Positions 7,044 through 10,739 of a DNA stretch of 10,739 nucleotides are shown piece after piece. The notes below the pieces were generated by a model, which saw only the letters and a list, made by a program, of their open reading frames with translations, did no database searches and was not told the DNA's origin. The position numbers were made by a program, and so were the translations under genes. Origin of the DNA: Nitrospirota bacterium (GTDB taxonomy: Bacteria; Nitrospirota; UBA9217); the NCBI GenBank assembly GCA_021788515.1, contig JAJYKN010000011.1, positions 1-10,739 of the forward strand. Direction: 5' to 3'. Within the stretch, counting starts at the first letter, position 1. Each line of letters begins with the position of its first letter.

Positions 7044-7074
7044 CTATCTTAGGCTTGTCGTGAAGAACCCGGGA

Positions 7075-7821
7075 TTACATCGCGGCTTCCACAGCGATAT
7101 GTCCGGCAAGAGTTGTGACAAACGACTTAAGGCCCGTATCTTCGCCCATTTCAAAATATTCACCCGATTTGGATGCACGGCGAGGCGAGAGAATAACGGC
7201 GGCGGATGTATATAATCCTTCTCGCATCAGCTTCACACACAGGGTATTGAAACGATTTGCATACGAGGTGTTCCGAAACTCGGGGAATATGGGGAAATAA
7301 GGTGAAACGTCCGTGACCTGGCAGCGGAAAGATAGCGCGTCTTCGAGCAAGACAAGATAACCGACAAATGGCTGTCTGGTTCCTCTAAAAATATTCCCCC
7401 TGCACGCAGCACGCAACTCCATCGCCATGCTGAGAACTTCCTTGCGGCCCATGCCGACATGATTGGCGAGCAACTCACCTGGAACTGAATCTAATTTCAT
7501 GGCCGCGATCAGCCGCCCCTCATTTACTACCACGAGATCCCATGATTGGGCTGGTGAGAAATGCCCCGGAAGCGATACAGGTCGCCCCTGCTGCAAGACA
7601 TTCGCTCTCGTCAGTCCGTTGGCATAAACGATATCGGTAATAAGATCGGTGAACCCCTCCATACTACCGACCATCGGCTTCTTAGTGCCGGATTTCTTCC
7701 ATGTGCTCCAGAACTGCTTGACAGCGGAGCGGGCTTTAGTCTCATAACCAGCGAGATCAAGCAGCGTCTTCCGCTTTTTTATCATCGACTTCGATTTCGC
7801 TAGTTTTAGATTAATTGCCAT
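7075..7821 (-). CDS. PaeR7I/XhoI-family type II restriction endonuclease, active site apparently degenerate
   Basis: Belongs to the family that cuts CTCGAG. Landmarks I recognise are AVKQFW (33-38), MEGFTDLI (54-61), LPGHFSPAQSWDLVVVNEGR (84-103), RQPFVGYLVLLEDA (149-162), DVSPYFPIFPEF (171-182), SPRRASKSGEY (212-222) and SFVTTLAGHIAVEAA at the C-terminus; 248 residues is family length. In active members the WDL strand is followed by A-A-x-E-F-K-S-Q; here residues 107-112 read A-M-K-L-D-S, so the catalytic Glu and Lys are Lys109 and Asp111. The Asn-rich loop that normally follows is also replaced. The frame is intact, suggesting a protein retained without nuclease activity. GAGG lies about 10 bases before the ATG, and the previous small frame stops 5 bases upstream. 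No intact cognate methyltransferase is present. Confidence 0.85.
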   Translation of the reverse strand: MAINLKLAKSKSMIKKRKTLLDLAGYETKARSAVKQFWSTWKKSGTKKPMVGSMEGFTDLITDIVYANGLTRANVLQQGRPVSLPGHFSPAQSWDLVVVNEGRLIAAMKLDSVPGELLANHVGMGRKEVLSMAMELRAACRGNIFRGTRQPFVGYLVLLEDALSFRCQVTDVSPYFPIFPEFRNTSYANRFNTLCVKLMREGLYTSAAVILSPRRASKSGEYFEMGEDTGLKSFVTTLAGHIAVEAAM

Positions 7822-7826
7822 TATGT

Positions 7827-7952
7827 CTAATCCTCATAGGGACCCAGACTCGGCAAAAACTTGAGTTCCTTGCCATTCGACAGCATAACCGGAAACCGTT
7901 GCATCTTACGCTCTTTGCCAGAGCGCTTTTCCAATGCTTTTACGGTTTGCAT
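7827..7952 (-). CDS. 41-codon small ORF or gene remnant upstream of the PaeR7I-like nuclease
   Basis: From the ATG at 7952 it reads MQTVKALEKRSGKERKMQRF, then PVMLSNGKELKFLPSLGPYED and a TAG. The frame is open upstream to 7973. The segment looks like real protein (alternating strand pattern after a basic helix), and its stop lies 5 bases before the nuclease start, with GAGG of its last codons serving as that gene's ribosome site. It could be the surviving 3' end of the lost methyltransferase gene, a piece of a BsuBI/PstI-type endonuclease (a faint resemblance in FPVMLSNGKEL), or a small leader gene. No good ribosome site precedes its ATG. I cannot choose between these. Confidence 0.4.
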   Translation of the reverse strand: MQTVKALEKRSGKERKMQRFPVMLSNGKELKFLPSLGPYED

Positions 7953-8016
7953 ACGCGTGCTTTCATCGATTCTCTAAAATGAAGCCCGTTCCTTTTCCAA
8001 ATATTCGCTATGTCGC

Positions 8017-8044
8017 TTGACACAAAACCGGAATCTGATAGAAT
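8017..8044 (+). promoter_or_regulatory. strong sigma70-type promoter of the PD-(D/E)xK nuclease gene
   Basis: TTGACA (8017-8022), a 16-base spacer and TAGAAT (8039-8044, five of six consensus bases). Transcription should start near 8051, giving a leader of about 56 bases before the ATG at 8107. This is a nearly consensus promoter for a nuclease gene, so repression by a partner protein would be expected. Confidence 0.65.
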
Positions 8045-8066
8045 CCCCCGTGTGATCCTTAACTTC

Positions 8067-8074
8067 TCACGTGA
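8067..8074. promoter_or_regulatory. palindrome TCACGTGA in the nuclease leader
   Basis: A perfect 8-base palindrome about 16 bases downstream of the predicted start of transcription and 33 bases before the start codon. It is well placed as an operator for the small HTH protein of the cassette or another repressor, but a single 8-base palindrome can occur by chance. Confidence 0.25.
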
Positions 8075-8106
8075 TCTCCATATTGTTCAATCAAAGAGGA
8101 GAAGAT

Positions 8107-8706
8107 ATGTCGCCAGATGAACGTAAAAGCATTCTGAAACGATGGGACCTGACTGAGCAGGAGCTTACAGAAATCATCCAGCAGAACCCGAGCATGCGTG
8201 GCCTCATGCTCGGTTATATCGCTGAATACAAACTGAGAAAGATGCACTTTTCCAGTCCGCGCTATGAGAATGTTCACAAGGCCGACGACCATGACCGAAG
8301 CCGAAAAAGCGATCTCATCGTCACGTACAAAGGCAAGAACTTTACAGTAGAGTGCAAGTCCCTCCAAACGAACAGCATTAAAACGACGGAAGCCGGATAC
8401 ATCGGCAAGTATCAATGCGACGCCAGCGACCGGCGCAAGATCAAGGTTGGGAGCAAGACTGTCGAGACCACCTGCCTGCTGGTAGGCGAATTCGACATCA
8501 TCGCCGTGAACCTTTTCTCGTTCGAGGAGAAGTGGCGTTTCGCTTTCGCGCTGAACGACGACCTCCCGCGCAGCACGTTCCGGAACTACCCTCCCGCCAT
8601 TCGGCGGAAGCTTCTCGCAACACTAATGCCGGTGTCGTGGCCTTTGCAACCTCCGTATATTGCAAGTCCAGTTCCCCTTCTCGAACATCTGTTAAATCGC
8701 GCATGA
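8107..8706 (+). CDS. PD-(D/E)xK restriction endonuclease-like protein (199 aa)
   Basis: Predicted Mg2+-dependent DNA nuclease. The core is KSDLIVTYKGKNFTVECKSL: D69, then E82-C-K84, a textbook D...ExK. An N-terminal helix with GYIAEYKL (36-43) could supply a further acidic residue (E40). Further conserved-looking blocks are HKADDHDRSRKSD, KYQCDASDRRKIK, TTCLLVGEFDIIAVNLF and EKWRFAFALNDDLPRS. I recall related proteins beside DNA methylases, but cannot name a prototype enzyme or recognition site. The ATG at 8107 is chosen because AGAGGAG ends five bases before it and a strong promoter lies upstream; the GTG at 8071 is poorer. It faces the methyltransferase, and the two reading frames overlap by about 209 bases at their 3' ends. 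Product: a probable type II restriction enzyme paired with that methylase. Confidence 0.75.
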   Translation: MSPDERKSILKRWDLTEQELTEIIQQNPSMRGLMLGYIAEYKLRKMHFSSPRYENVHKADDHDRSRKSDLIVTYKGKNFTVECKSLQTNSIKTTEAGYIGKYQCDASDRRKIKVGSKTVETTCLLVGEFDIIAVNLFSFEEKWRFAFALNDDLPRSTFRNYPPAIRRKLLATLMPVSWPLQPPYIASPVPLLEHLLNRA

Positions 8707-9406
8707 TGTTGATCGAGTTCAGCTTGGACTTTGTCGCGCCGAGCTGGCAAACCAAAAAGTACGAGTGGTTCTTTCTCGCGTGCAATTGTTTGATCACTCT
8801 TGTTACGCCCGGCTTGTTACGCCGTATCATGACGAAAATATCCTTCGCATAGAACCCCAGGCGCATGAAGTTCAGAATGATCTCGATGTGGGTCATGCGC
8901 TGGATCCCCGCGCTCACTTCGTCCTGACACTTCACGATCAAGACCCCGTGACGTTTCAGAACCCGTTTGGCCTCGATGGCCGCCTGCACGTAAAGCTCAA
9001 GTACCGCGTCATGCCATTTATTAGCGAGCGCGGACGGCCTGTCGCCATTCGAGTAATGGTCGCGGAACGAGGAATGCGTCCCGTTGCCAGCAAAGGAATT
9101 ATCGCTTCGGAAAAGACCCTCCATGTAGGGTGGGTCGAGCACAACGCAGTCGAGCTCGCCGTCGCCATAGGGCAAATGTCGGCAATCGACCCCTGACTTC
9201 AAATCAGATGGCAGCAGCTTGTATTCAGTCGCTGGGATGCTCTTCCAGAACACGCCCTTACCGTAGGTCACGTCCGCGACTTTAGAGCCTGAGGGAACAT
9301 GGAGCCGCAGCACGTGCGGGAACACCTCGCTGTTGTCGCCGTTGTACGCGGAAAACACGAGTTCCGTCGTTGCCCTGCCAGCCGGTGATTTTCTCTTCAT
9401 TTTCAT
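8498..9406 (-). CDS. DNA methyltransferase (amino-type, DPPY), with an unusual C-terminal tail
   Basis: SAM-dependent adenine-N6 or cytosine-N4 methyltransferase. SAM motif I is VADVTYGKGVFW (43-54) and catalytic motif IV DPPY (91-94), about 45 residues apart and in the order I-IV. There is then a helix-rich segment (LYVQAAIEAKRVLKRHGVLI, 138-157) and a terminal strand HSYFLVCQ (214-221), where such folds normally end. Only a small insert is available for target recognition, so the domain is compact. The frame continues 81 more residues, from about residue 234 antisense to the opposing nuclease gene; the end is Arg/Ser/Gly-rich (GGRRSARKRN) and looks uncoded by selection. The ATG at 9406 (or 9400) has no ribosome site but sits at the predicted transcription start. 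The HTH gene lies 36 bases upstream. It is the likely protector against the opposing nuclease. Confidence 0.85.
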   Translation of the reverse strand: MKMKRKSPAGRATTELVFSAYNGDNSEVFPHVLRLHVPSGSKVADVTYGKGVFWKSIPATEYKLLPSDLKSGVDCRHLPYGDGELDCVVLDPPYMEGLFRSDNSFAGNGTHSSFRDHYSNGDRPSALANKWHDAVLELYVQAAIEAKRVLKRHGVLIVKCQDEVSAGIQRMTHIEIILNFMRLGFYAKDIFVMIRRNKPGVTRVIKQLHARKNHSYFLVCQLGATKSKLNSINIMRDLTDVREGELDLQYTEVAKATTPALVLREASAEWREGSSGTCCAGGRRSARKRNATSPRTRKGSRR

Positions 9407-9412
9407 GTGCGG

Positions 9413-9441
9413 ATTATACTAAATTACTAGCGCAAACGCAA
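9413..9441 (-). promoter_or_regulatory. promoter predicted to give a leaderless methyltransferase mRNA
   Basis: On the minus strand TTGCGT (9441-9436), a 17-base spacer and a perfect TATAAT (9418-9413). The start of transcription would fall at about 9406, the A of the methyltransferase ATG, and no Shine-Dalgarno is present. The promoter overlaps the gap and the very end of the HTH gene, so the methylase could be made independently of it. Confidence 0.5.
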
Positions 9442-9442
9442 G

Positions 9443-9634
9443 TTATTTTTTAGGGGGTCTGCCCGCCTTCTTTTTACCGCTCGATGCGTATTGCTTCAAC
9501 TCGCTCTCGGGTATAAGGTGGTCCCGCCCGAACTTCTCCGACTTGATGCGCTTTTCAATTATCAGTTGACGGACCCTTCCCGCCGTCACCTTGAGATACG
9601 CCGCTGCGCTTTCAGTTGTATGAAGTTTGGACAT
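9443..9634 (-). CDS. excisionase/MerR-like helix-turn-helix protein (63 aa)
   Basis: Small predicted DNA-binding regulator. From the ATG at 9634 it reads MSKLHTTESAAAYLKVTAGR, then VRQLIIEKRIKSEKFGRDHL with IPESELKQY. This is the helix-turn-helix and wing of the excisionase/AlpA-like family that reads x-TTESAAAYL-x-V-x(2)-GRVRQLI. The tail KKKAGRPPKK is AT-hook-like. The start lies one base after the stop of the truncated methyltransferase frame (TAATATG), with no proper ribosome site, so its translation may be coupled to that fragment. It precedes the methyltransferase by 36 bases. In such cassettes a small HTH protein typically controls the timing of methylase and nuclease expression; that role is inferred here. 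An alternative is an excisionase left from an integrated element. Confidence 0.8.
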   Translation of the reverse strand: MSKLHTTESAAAYLKVTAGRVRQLIIEKRIKSEKFGRDHLIPESELKQYASSGKKKAGRPPKK

Positions 9635-9635
9635 A

Positions 9636-9839
9636 TTACGACGCAAACAGAACCCCCACCCCGGCCCCGGGATCGAGAATCCGTACCTCAAGCCCCATGT
9701 GTTGAAACAACGATGCCATATACTGCGCGATCAAGGCAGGCGTGAAGAACAGCCCGATCTTCGATCGTTCGCTACGGTCGGTAGTGCCGTTCAACGATTT
9801 GCGGCCACCATCTAAGGTATTTGTCAGTTTCACAGTCAT
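9636..9839 (-). pseudogene. 5' fragment of a PaeR7I/XhoI-class N6-adenine DNA methyltransferase
   Basis: The 67 codons hold the start of a gamma-class (Eco57I-like) N6-adenine methyltransferase: KIGLFFTPALIAQYMASLF (27-45, motif X, normally GQFFTP/GQFMTP) and RILDPGAGVG (53-62, SAM motif I). Full enzymes of this class exceed 400 residues and carry an NPPY motif, absent here. The coding match ends at VGVLFAS and a TAA, one base before the HTH gene. M.PaeR7I and M.XhoI belong to this class, and the XhoI-type nuclease lies on the same strand at 7075, so this is likely the front of its lost methylase. It cannot methylate as it stands, but its transcription and translation may still feed the HTH gene. 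Confidence 0.75.
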
Positions 9840-9866
9840 AGCAATTATTTGGCCTTAAAGCACGAT

Positions 9867-10043
9867 TCAAGACGCGACCCTATAGGCTCTTGTCCCGCTC
9901 GGAAGCAATTCTCGAAGATCAGCCTCGGCAATATTCATCCGCTTGGCAATGATTTCCCTCGCCTCTTTCATGGGATGCTCTTTGCCGTCAGCGGCCACGT
10001 CCAGCAAAGGCTTGAAGAAAGACTGGAAATCAGGAACTGCCAT
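9867..10043 (-). pseudogene. N-terminal fragment of an Mrr-type restriction protein (58 codons)
   Basis: From the ATG at 10043, with AAGGAG seven bases upstream, the frame reads MAVPDFQSFFKPLLDVAADG, then KEHPMKEAREIIAKRMNIAE and ADLRELLPSGTRAYRVAS before TGA. The first 50 residues match the Mrr N-terminal winged-helix domain (MxVPDFQxFxLPLL, A.DG.EHx..EA...IA, L.ELLPSG). A complete domain continues through a NRVxWAxxYLxxAGL block to a PD-(D/E)xK catalytic domain near 300 residues in all; neither is present. It is therefore a truncated remnant, though the ribosome site is intact and a 58-residue DNA-binding peptide could still be made. It lies between the hicAB terminator and the methyltransferase fragment. 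Confidence 0.75.
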
Positions 10044-10094
10044 GATCGATCTCCTTAATTGCTTATTGCATTACATATCAGTTGGATTTCTGCG

Positions 10095-10140
10095 AAAAGA
10101 AAAAGCCGGTCAAAAAGGAATTAACTCATTCCCAACCGGC
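10095..10140 (-). terminator. intrinsic terminator downstream of hicAB
   Basis: Reading the minus strand, GCCGGT (10140-10135) pairs with ACCGGC (10110-10105), an inner GGAAT/ATTCC stem strengthens the hairpin, and TTTTTCTTTT (10104-10095) follows directly. It is correctly placed to end the hicAB transcript, 33 bases after hicB. Confidence 0.65.
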
Positions 10141-10173
10141 CTTGCGGTATTCTCTCCATGGCAGATCCCGCTT

Positions 10174-10386
10174 TCACGCATACATCAGGCGCTGTCCTCT
10201 CGGCGTTGGAACGATATCTCCGAATTCGCGCGCAGTCTCGATCCACAGCCGGATGGCCTCTTTGGCATTAGCCAGGGCCAGTTCCTGCGTATCTCCATGT
10301 GCCATACACCCCGGCAACTCAGGCACCTCGACGATAAAAATCTTGTCTTCCTCGCTCCAGTAAAGAATGATTTCATATTTATCCAT
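10174..10386 (-). CDS. hicB: HicB-family antitoxin (70 aa)
   Basis: Antitoxin of a type II HicAB module; it binds and blocks the HicA RNase. From the ATG at 10386 it reads MDKYEIILYWSEEDKIFIVE, then VPELPGCMAHGDTQELALAN and a helix AKEAIRLWIETAREFG. This is the partial RNase H fold of HicB (E-x-D-x-F-x-V-E-V-P-E-L-P-G-C-x-A-x-G-D-T). At 70 residues it lacks the C-terminal DNA-binding domain of longer HicB proteins, so it may not autoregulate alone. GAGGTGAG lies before the ATG, and the gene overlaps the end of hicA by 8 bases (ATGGATAA). The frame could start at 10395, but the ribosome site supports 10386. Confidence 0.9.
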   Translation of the reverse strand: MDKYEIILYWSEEDKIFIVEVPELPGCMAHGDTQELALANAKEAIRLWIETAREFGDIVPTPRGQRLMYA

Positions 10387-10639
10387 GGGTCTCACCTCGT
10401 AGCTTATACCGCAGGATCATGGCTCGCACCTGGCGGACTTGATACACTTTCGCCTTGCCGCCGTCCCGTTGAAGGTTAATCCGCTCTTCCACACCTTGTT
10501 TTCTGAAGATATGGTGACTTCCCCGCACGCGCATATCGAATCCCATCTGGACCAGAAGCCGGCACAATTCGTCAAAATCGATGTTCGCATCGGAACTGCC
10601 CAGCAGTATTTGCTCCAACAGTTTTTCGTATTTGCCCAT
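10379..10639 (-). CDS. hicA: HicA-family toxin (86 aa)
   Basis: mRNA interferase of the HicAB toxin-antitoxin family with a double-stranded-RNA-binding-like fold. Landmarks are the DFDELCRLLVQMGFDMR helix, RGSHHIFRKQG with the catalytic histidine region, and KVYQVRQVRAMI. At 86 residues it is typical length, with an N-terminal helix (KYEKLLEQILLGSSD) somewhat longer than in the shortest members. It precedes hicB and overlaps it by 8 bases, the classical toxin-first order. The ribosome site before the ATG at 10639 is weak (GAG two bases away), which would keep toxin production low. No residue that I would consider essential is missing, so the module is probably functional. Confidence 0.9.
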   Translation of the reverse strand: MGKYEKLLEQILLGSSDANIDFDELCRLLVQMGFDMRVRGSHHIFRKQGVEERINLQRDGGKAKVYQVRQVRAMILRYKLRGETHG

Positions 10640-10739
10640 GCTCGTTAATCAGCACTCTATAAGTTAAACTATCATATTTGGCTTATCAATTCAAGCGGTT
10701 CATTGGCACTTCTAATATCCGACTACAGCGAATCGAGGA
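10640..10739. other. upstream region of hicAB
   Basis: 100 AT-rich bases at the right edge without a gene. Weak -10-like strings (TATGAT, TTATAGAG) occur on the minus strand, but no -35/-10 pair at normal spacing convinces me. Confidence 0.25.

Follow-up and report, generated by a model that had tools for sequence, protein, structure and literature searches.

A restriction–modification unit of the NruI/Sbo13I family very probably replaced the middle of an older BsuBI/PstI-type operon in a Nitrospirota bacterium

The window analysed here is a stretch of 10,739 nucleotides that represents one contig of a draft Nitrospirota genome (74% complete), whose junctions are known from the assembly alone. 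From position 10639 downwards, the minus strand carries hicA, hicB, a fragment of an mrr gene, a fragment of a methylase gene, a gene for a helix-turn-helix (HTH) protein, the DPPY methylase gene M2 and, later, a gene of the XhoI endonuclease family. The nuclease gene R2 lies on the plus strand, convergent with M2, and overlaps it by 209 nt (Table 1). The first-pass annotation had correctly recognised the XhoI-family gene, the HTH and methylase genes upstream of it, and the plus-strand nuclease gene with its own promoter-like site. It had not noted the remnant of a BsuBI/PstI-type endonuclease, the truncated Mrr or the changes in the XhoI homologue's active site. The window was also scanned for Rfam families and tRNAs, with zero matches.

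Table 1. Features of the restriction locus, with positions in the window. G004 and G011 are related genomes introduced in the text.
Feature	Position	Strand	Evidence
Truncated Mrr-like endonuclease, 58-aa frame with Mrr_N only; remnant	9867..10043	-	Pfam Mrr_N, E 1e-12
BsuBI/PstI-type methylase N-terminus, 67 codons; remnant	9636..9839	-	Homology to the G011 methylase; tblastn
Cassette gene 1, HTH_17/excisionase-like protein, 63 aa	9443..9634	-	HTH_17, E 5e-7; TIGR01764
Cassette gene 2 (M2), DPPY methylase, NruI/Sbo13I family	8498..9406	-	M2 profile
Cassette gene 3 (R2), PD-(D/E)xK nuclease, NruI/Sbo13I family	8107..8706	+	R2 profile
R2 promoter-like site, TTGACA-16-TAGAAT	8017..8044	+	Present in G004 too; near the right cassette edge
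BsuBI/PstI-type endonuclease remnant	7827..7973	-	hmmsearch, E 9e-6
XhoI/PaeR7I-family endonuclease homologue, altered active site	7075..7821	-	PF04555, E 2e-45

By homology, the 67-codon frame represents the N-terminal part of a BsuBI/PstI-type methylase, with 79% identity to residues 1–67 of the 506-aa methylase of the relative G011. Its stop codon is followed, after a single base, by the start codon of the HTH gene (TAA-T-ATG). A tblastn search found the fragment in nine of ten BsuBI-type loci (E 4e-31 to 7e-9), L167 included; the one locus without a match, L177, is a broken copy. A phmmer search of nine loci that hold a BsuBI/PstI endonuclease, limited to frames of 350 aa or longer, matched the fragment in eight (E 1e-31 to 1e-8); the ninth, L167, escaped this search since its methylase is divided between two frames. 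Six XhoI/PaeR7I-type methylases either gave E values above 4 in the phmmer comparison or were not among the matches listed. The two best PADLOC models, PDLC03227 and PDLC03359, were the same for the fragment and for the full BsuBI-type methylase, and PDLC03313 ranked first for all seven XhoI-type methylases (L036 and six more, among them L196 from an annotated plasmid pair). True XhoI-type methylases are about 555–590 aa long, lie directly before their endonuclease gene and are proteins distinct from the fragment's family. An XhoI/PaeR7I origin of the fragment, as proposed in the first-pass annotation, was rejected on these counts and on the disagreeing PADLOC ranks, although the coordinates of the frame hold.

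The endonuclease of the same type has probably left a trace as well. A profile built from 11 BsuBI/PstI endonuclease pieces of ten loci gave a single match inside the inclusion threshold among 359 window fragments, on the expected strand between R2 and the XhoI-family gene. The match is short, with 34 residues aligned to profile positions 133–166 of 311, and corresponds to a position in or near the linker between both BsuBI_PstI_RE Pfam domains as placed in G011. Its pairwise score against the G011 endonuclease was 71. Scores averaged 30 for 500 shuffles (at most 61) and 32 for 140 other stretches of the window (at most 46). The frame of the remnant terminates in LGPYED and the G011 enzyme in LGPYDD. 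In G004, the corresponding stretch scored 33, which is background, and no such remnant is present. The endonuclease gene is internally deleted and mrr is likewise truncated, its fragment matching the intact 313-aa Mrr of G011 at 89% over 53 aa. Both genes of one BsuBI/PstI-type system thus appear to survive only as remnants, on either side of the cassette.

The intact order is preserved in G011, where mrr (313 aa) is followed by the methylase gene (506 aa), the BsuBI/PstI endonuclease gene (325 aa) and an XhoI homologue; other neighbours are present too. The window's methylase fragment and endonuclease remnant are of the same type and in the same order as this restriction–modification (R-M) system (PF06616/PF17728) with its mrr gene, but the system is intact in G011, whereas both window genes are remnants.

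Two genomes of the window's own genus provide the flanks. G001 and the window have 6.7 kb in common (94.5%), ending where rlmN ends; past rlmN follow about 210 bp and then a gene that in G002 is found beyond hicA, and the island is absent. Read from its translation, this gene would encode a CheY-like response regulator. G002 shares hicAB and the start of mrr with the window (97.4% over 848 bp), and its contig ends inside mrr, of which at least 156 aa are kept. Together, G001 and G002 anchor the two ends of the window contig to a single chromosomal locus, and this speaks against gross chimerism of the contig. Among the genomes examined in the genus, none has the same flanks with an intact Mrr-M-R order, the G002 contig stopping inside mrr. 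In a comparison of window positions 9892–10739 with the G002 locus (L166), hicAB was nearly identical and the adjoining mrr fragment far more divergent; in G002, a 46-bp piece around the mrr start recurs beyond hicA. The contrast in divergence and the repeat are signs of a recombination mosaic.

Judged by its proteins, the cassette between the remnants combines an R-M unit of the NruI/Sbo13I family with an HTH gene. In a search of six proteins, the methylase of the Shigella boydii plasmid pSB13 matched the M2 profile with 392 bits (E 5e-121) and the pSB13 endonuclease matched the R2 profile with 302 bits; the plasmid methylase is 59% identical over residues 1–219 of the window M2. According to the available text of PMC2890505, Sbo13I is encoded by a 5.4-kb plasmid of S. 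boydii C13 and cuts TCG^CGA, with its R and M genes in opposite directions and a controller gene before R. From its size (5424 bp) and name, pSB13 would be the Sbo13I plasmid. The cassette resembles NruI/Sbo13I in its homologous methylase and nuclease, in the DPPY motif IV and in the opposite directions of the two genes described in that text. Whereas the Sbo13I controller gene (HTH_3) precedes R, the cassette has a different HTH gene (HTH_17) before M. The cassette would be predicted to be active and specific for TCGCGA. Among the sequences of solved structures, none matched M2 or the XhoI homologue and one matched R2 (E 0.5), and Foldseek against the PDB with both models returned nothing at E 0.001 or better.

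The HTH-M-R unit also occurs elsewhere. The core is found in G004, of the same family as the window's genome (85.1% DNA identity over HTH-M2-R2), and in G018, of another family (84.5%), and M2 is 90–91% identical to both counterparts. On the left, the homology with G004 starts 1 nt ahead of the HTH start codon and that with G018 starts 6 nt into the HTH gene, and the left flanks of the three units all differ. The window and G018 units start on truncated genes, in G018 on a 208-aa frame that overlaps the HTH start; the G004 unit starts 74 nt behind a 29-codon Mrr fragment. Relatives of the 208-aa frame are mostly about 300–310 aa long, roughly 100 residues longer (best 120 of 1362), and one of them, P0242, matched a PADLOC type II restriction model (E 1e-9). 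A Pfam scan of PF27126-family proteins gave no clear family. On the right, the cassette edge is poorly defined because, beyond the R2 start, the window and G004 have no more than 34 bp around the R2 promoter in common, and because the G018 contig ends about 75 nt past that start. As the first-pass annotation had stated, no direct repeats were found at the cassette edges, nor was a target-site duplication. Thirteen short repeat families (10–21 nt) occur within positions 7060–10739, and the two members of the longest pair (21 nt, 76%) fall within the endonuclease and Mrr remnants, away from these edges.

Of the 85 stretches scanned, those with the three close units alone contain the HTH gene; the G018 unit is represented there by L030 and L045 and the G004 unit by L029 and L046. 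Its protein matches positions 1–63 of the 365-long PADLOC methylase model PDLC03252. M2 at 90% identity or more is likewise confined to these three units among the 15 genomes with any M2 relative, out of 395 searched in the phylum. Relatives of M2 are encoded by 174 loci, and 80 of these were kept for the comparison. Seventy of the 80, which by record title come from many phyla, also have R2; the two genes lie no more than 300 nt apart in 69 and are convergent in 65, on the same strand in four and divergent in one; ten kept loci have no R2, some because the stretch ends there. The dN/dS values of M2 and R2 are 0.05–0.08, although they are not independent because the genes overlap. The last ~75 codons of M2 (8498–8706) run antisense through the end of R2, an arrangement kept in G004 and G018, and lie beyond the homology common to two distant family members that were aligned.

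Methylases of the M2 family, 59–60% identical, also occur in six mycobacteriophage records. Beside gene 62 of mycobacteriophage Wheeler (L227), no R2-like gene is annotated, and an endonuclease VII gene is close by. The phage methylases perhaps serve in self-protection against NruI-type restriction.

The XhoI-family gene downstream of the cassette probably has a history of its own. Its product is homologous to PaeR7I/XhoI endonucleases (from the L196 plasmid and from G003, G004, G010 and G011), with about 42–56% identity and homology at the level of fold and family, but the D...E-x-K site, which is presumably catalytic as in the PD-(D/E)xK family, is altered. The D is kept, E-x-K has become K-x-D, and the DQGERSAVTAG loop is missing. 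The protein belongs to a clade of 44 rows (support 100/99), in which E-x-K is mostly K-x-D/E and a conserved 14-residue loop is mostly lost. No XhoI-type methylase adjoins the clade gene in the five carrier genomes seen, and none was found in the window's genome (G000, 74% complete). Two of the five carriers also encode E-x-K-bearing PaeR7I-type enzymes. A search with the window protein gave no match in phages and 110 records in plasmids, all below 60% identity, and none of 35 pattern matches to the clade in viral contigs was confirmed. From its residues, the homologue is probably a non-cleaving derivative, and it looks kept by selection.

Elsewhere, a clade gene lies near a Panacea/SocA-like antitoxin gene in G008 (L034, 6826–9713), where another nearby gene matches NOV_C weakly, under the cut-off. 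In G006 (L041, 6332–7054), a broken clade copy lies beside a nucleotidyltransferase-like gene.

As a partner of the cassette, the XhoI gene was rejected, a homologue being near M2 in only one of the 80 kept loci, L046 (same contig as G004:C98), whose left flank differs from that of the window. Conservation of the order fragment-HTH-M-R-XhoI across numerous distant genomes had been named as evidence against a displacement; no such conservation was seen among these loci. Nor is the XhoI homologue the partner of the displaced methylase, as had been supposed, since the BsuBI-type endonuclease remnant and the gene order of G011 point elsewhere; it is a separate extra gene downstream of the displaced system.

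It is thus very likely that an NruI/Sbo13I-family unit replaced the middle of an older operon consisting of mrr and a BsuBI/PstI-type R-M system. This is supported by the remnants on both sides, by the intact operon of G011, by the occurrence of the cassette core in other settings (G004 and G018, about 85% DNA identity) and, further, by the empty site in G001 of the same genus. Of the earlier proposal that a second R-M system had replaced part of a first, the displacement stands, and the XhoI type of the victim does not. The incoming unit measures about 1.6 kb, with the HTH and methylase genes on one strand and the nuclease gene on the other. Codons 1–67 of the old methylase are still present on one side of it, and pieces of the old endonuclease on the other. 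The M2 half starts directly behind the stop of the truncated methylase; because of this TAA-T-ATG junction, it is probably expressed from the leader of the old gene, perhaps with translational coupling, and R2 has its own promoter-like site. The XhoI-family gene, a solitary derivative whose active site has degenerated, is separate and was probably there before. The replacement may have occurred in one step or as an insertion followed by a deletion.

A possible but clearly less probable course is that the NruI-type unit landed beside an already broken BsuBI-type operon and that later deletions joined the two, the newcomer having displaced nothing. Such decay would fit the truncation of Mrr, the internal deletion of the endonuclease gene, hicAB and the other rearrangements around, and the broken XhoI-like piece of G006. 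However, a single nucleotide separates the junction from the HTH start, and the G018 unit likewise begins atop a truncated gene; the sequence alone leaves the order of events undecided. It is quite unlikely that the 67-aa frame has been kept as a functional leader peptide of an HTH-M2 operon, as an evolved regulatory fusion. The single base between stop and start and the overlap of the truncated G018 frame with the HTH start would suit this idea, but the upstream frame of G004 is a different one that stops before the HTH gene, and the methylase fragment has no counterpart in the G004 and G018 units. It is hardly credible that the cassette displaced the middle part of a methylase of the PaeR7I/XhoI type, with the downstream XhoI-family gene encoding the partner endonuclease: such a gene does sit there, and true PaeR7I-type pairs do consist of M and directly R (L035–L038, L042, L043; plasmid record), but the fragment matches nine of ten BsuBI-type loci and none of six XhoI-type methylases, a BsuBI-type endonuclease remnant separates the cassette from the XhoI gene, and M and R in the M-R-XhoI homologue order of G011 are BsuBI-type.

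The replacement of the BsuBI/PstI-type system by the NruI/Sbo13I-family unit has precedents. An R-M system inserted into another is described for Campylobacter upsaliensis and suggested for Helicobacter pylori in the available text of PMC2630997. These cases likewise place one R-M complex inside another but concern other families, and the host system in the window is largely deleted. With R-M inside R-M already reported there, it is rather the XhoI-derived clade that comes as a surprise.

A more far-reaching reading, regarded as rather doubtful, takes the members of this clade as neofunctionalised pseudo-endonucleases that lost cleavage with the E-x-K change, which probably took place in one ancestor, and were retained by selection as DNA-binding guards or as regulators of restriction islands, and has the HTH-NruI unit repeatedly capturing the leaders of restriction genes. 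A guard, if there is one, could for example mask CTCGAG sites against the E-x-K-bearing PaeR7I-type enzymes.

The locus offers a readable case in which one R-M system stands where another once was and pieces of both old genes survive. These pieces and the empty site in the same genus make the idea of competition between R-M systems testable on a natural junction. The conserved XhoI-like clade, probably without cleavage, raises the question of what use a non-cutting restriction enzyme has.
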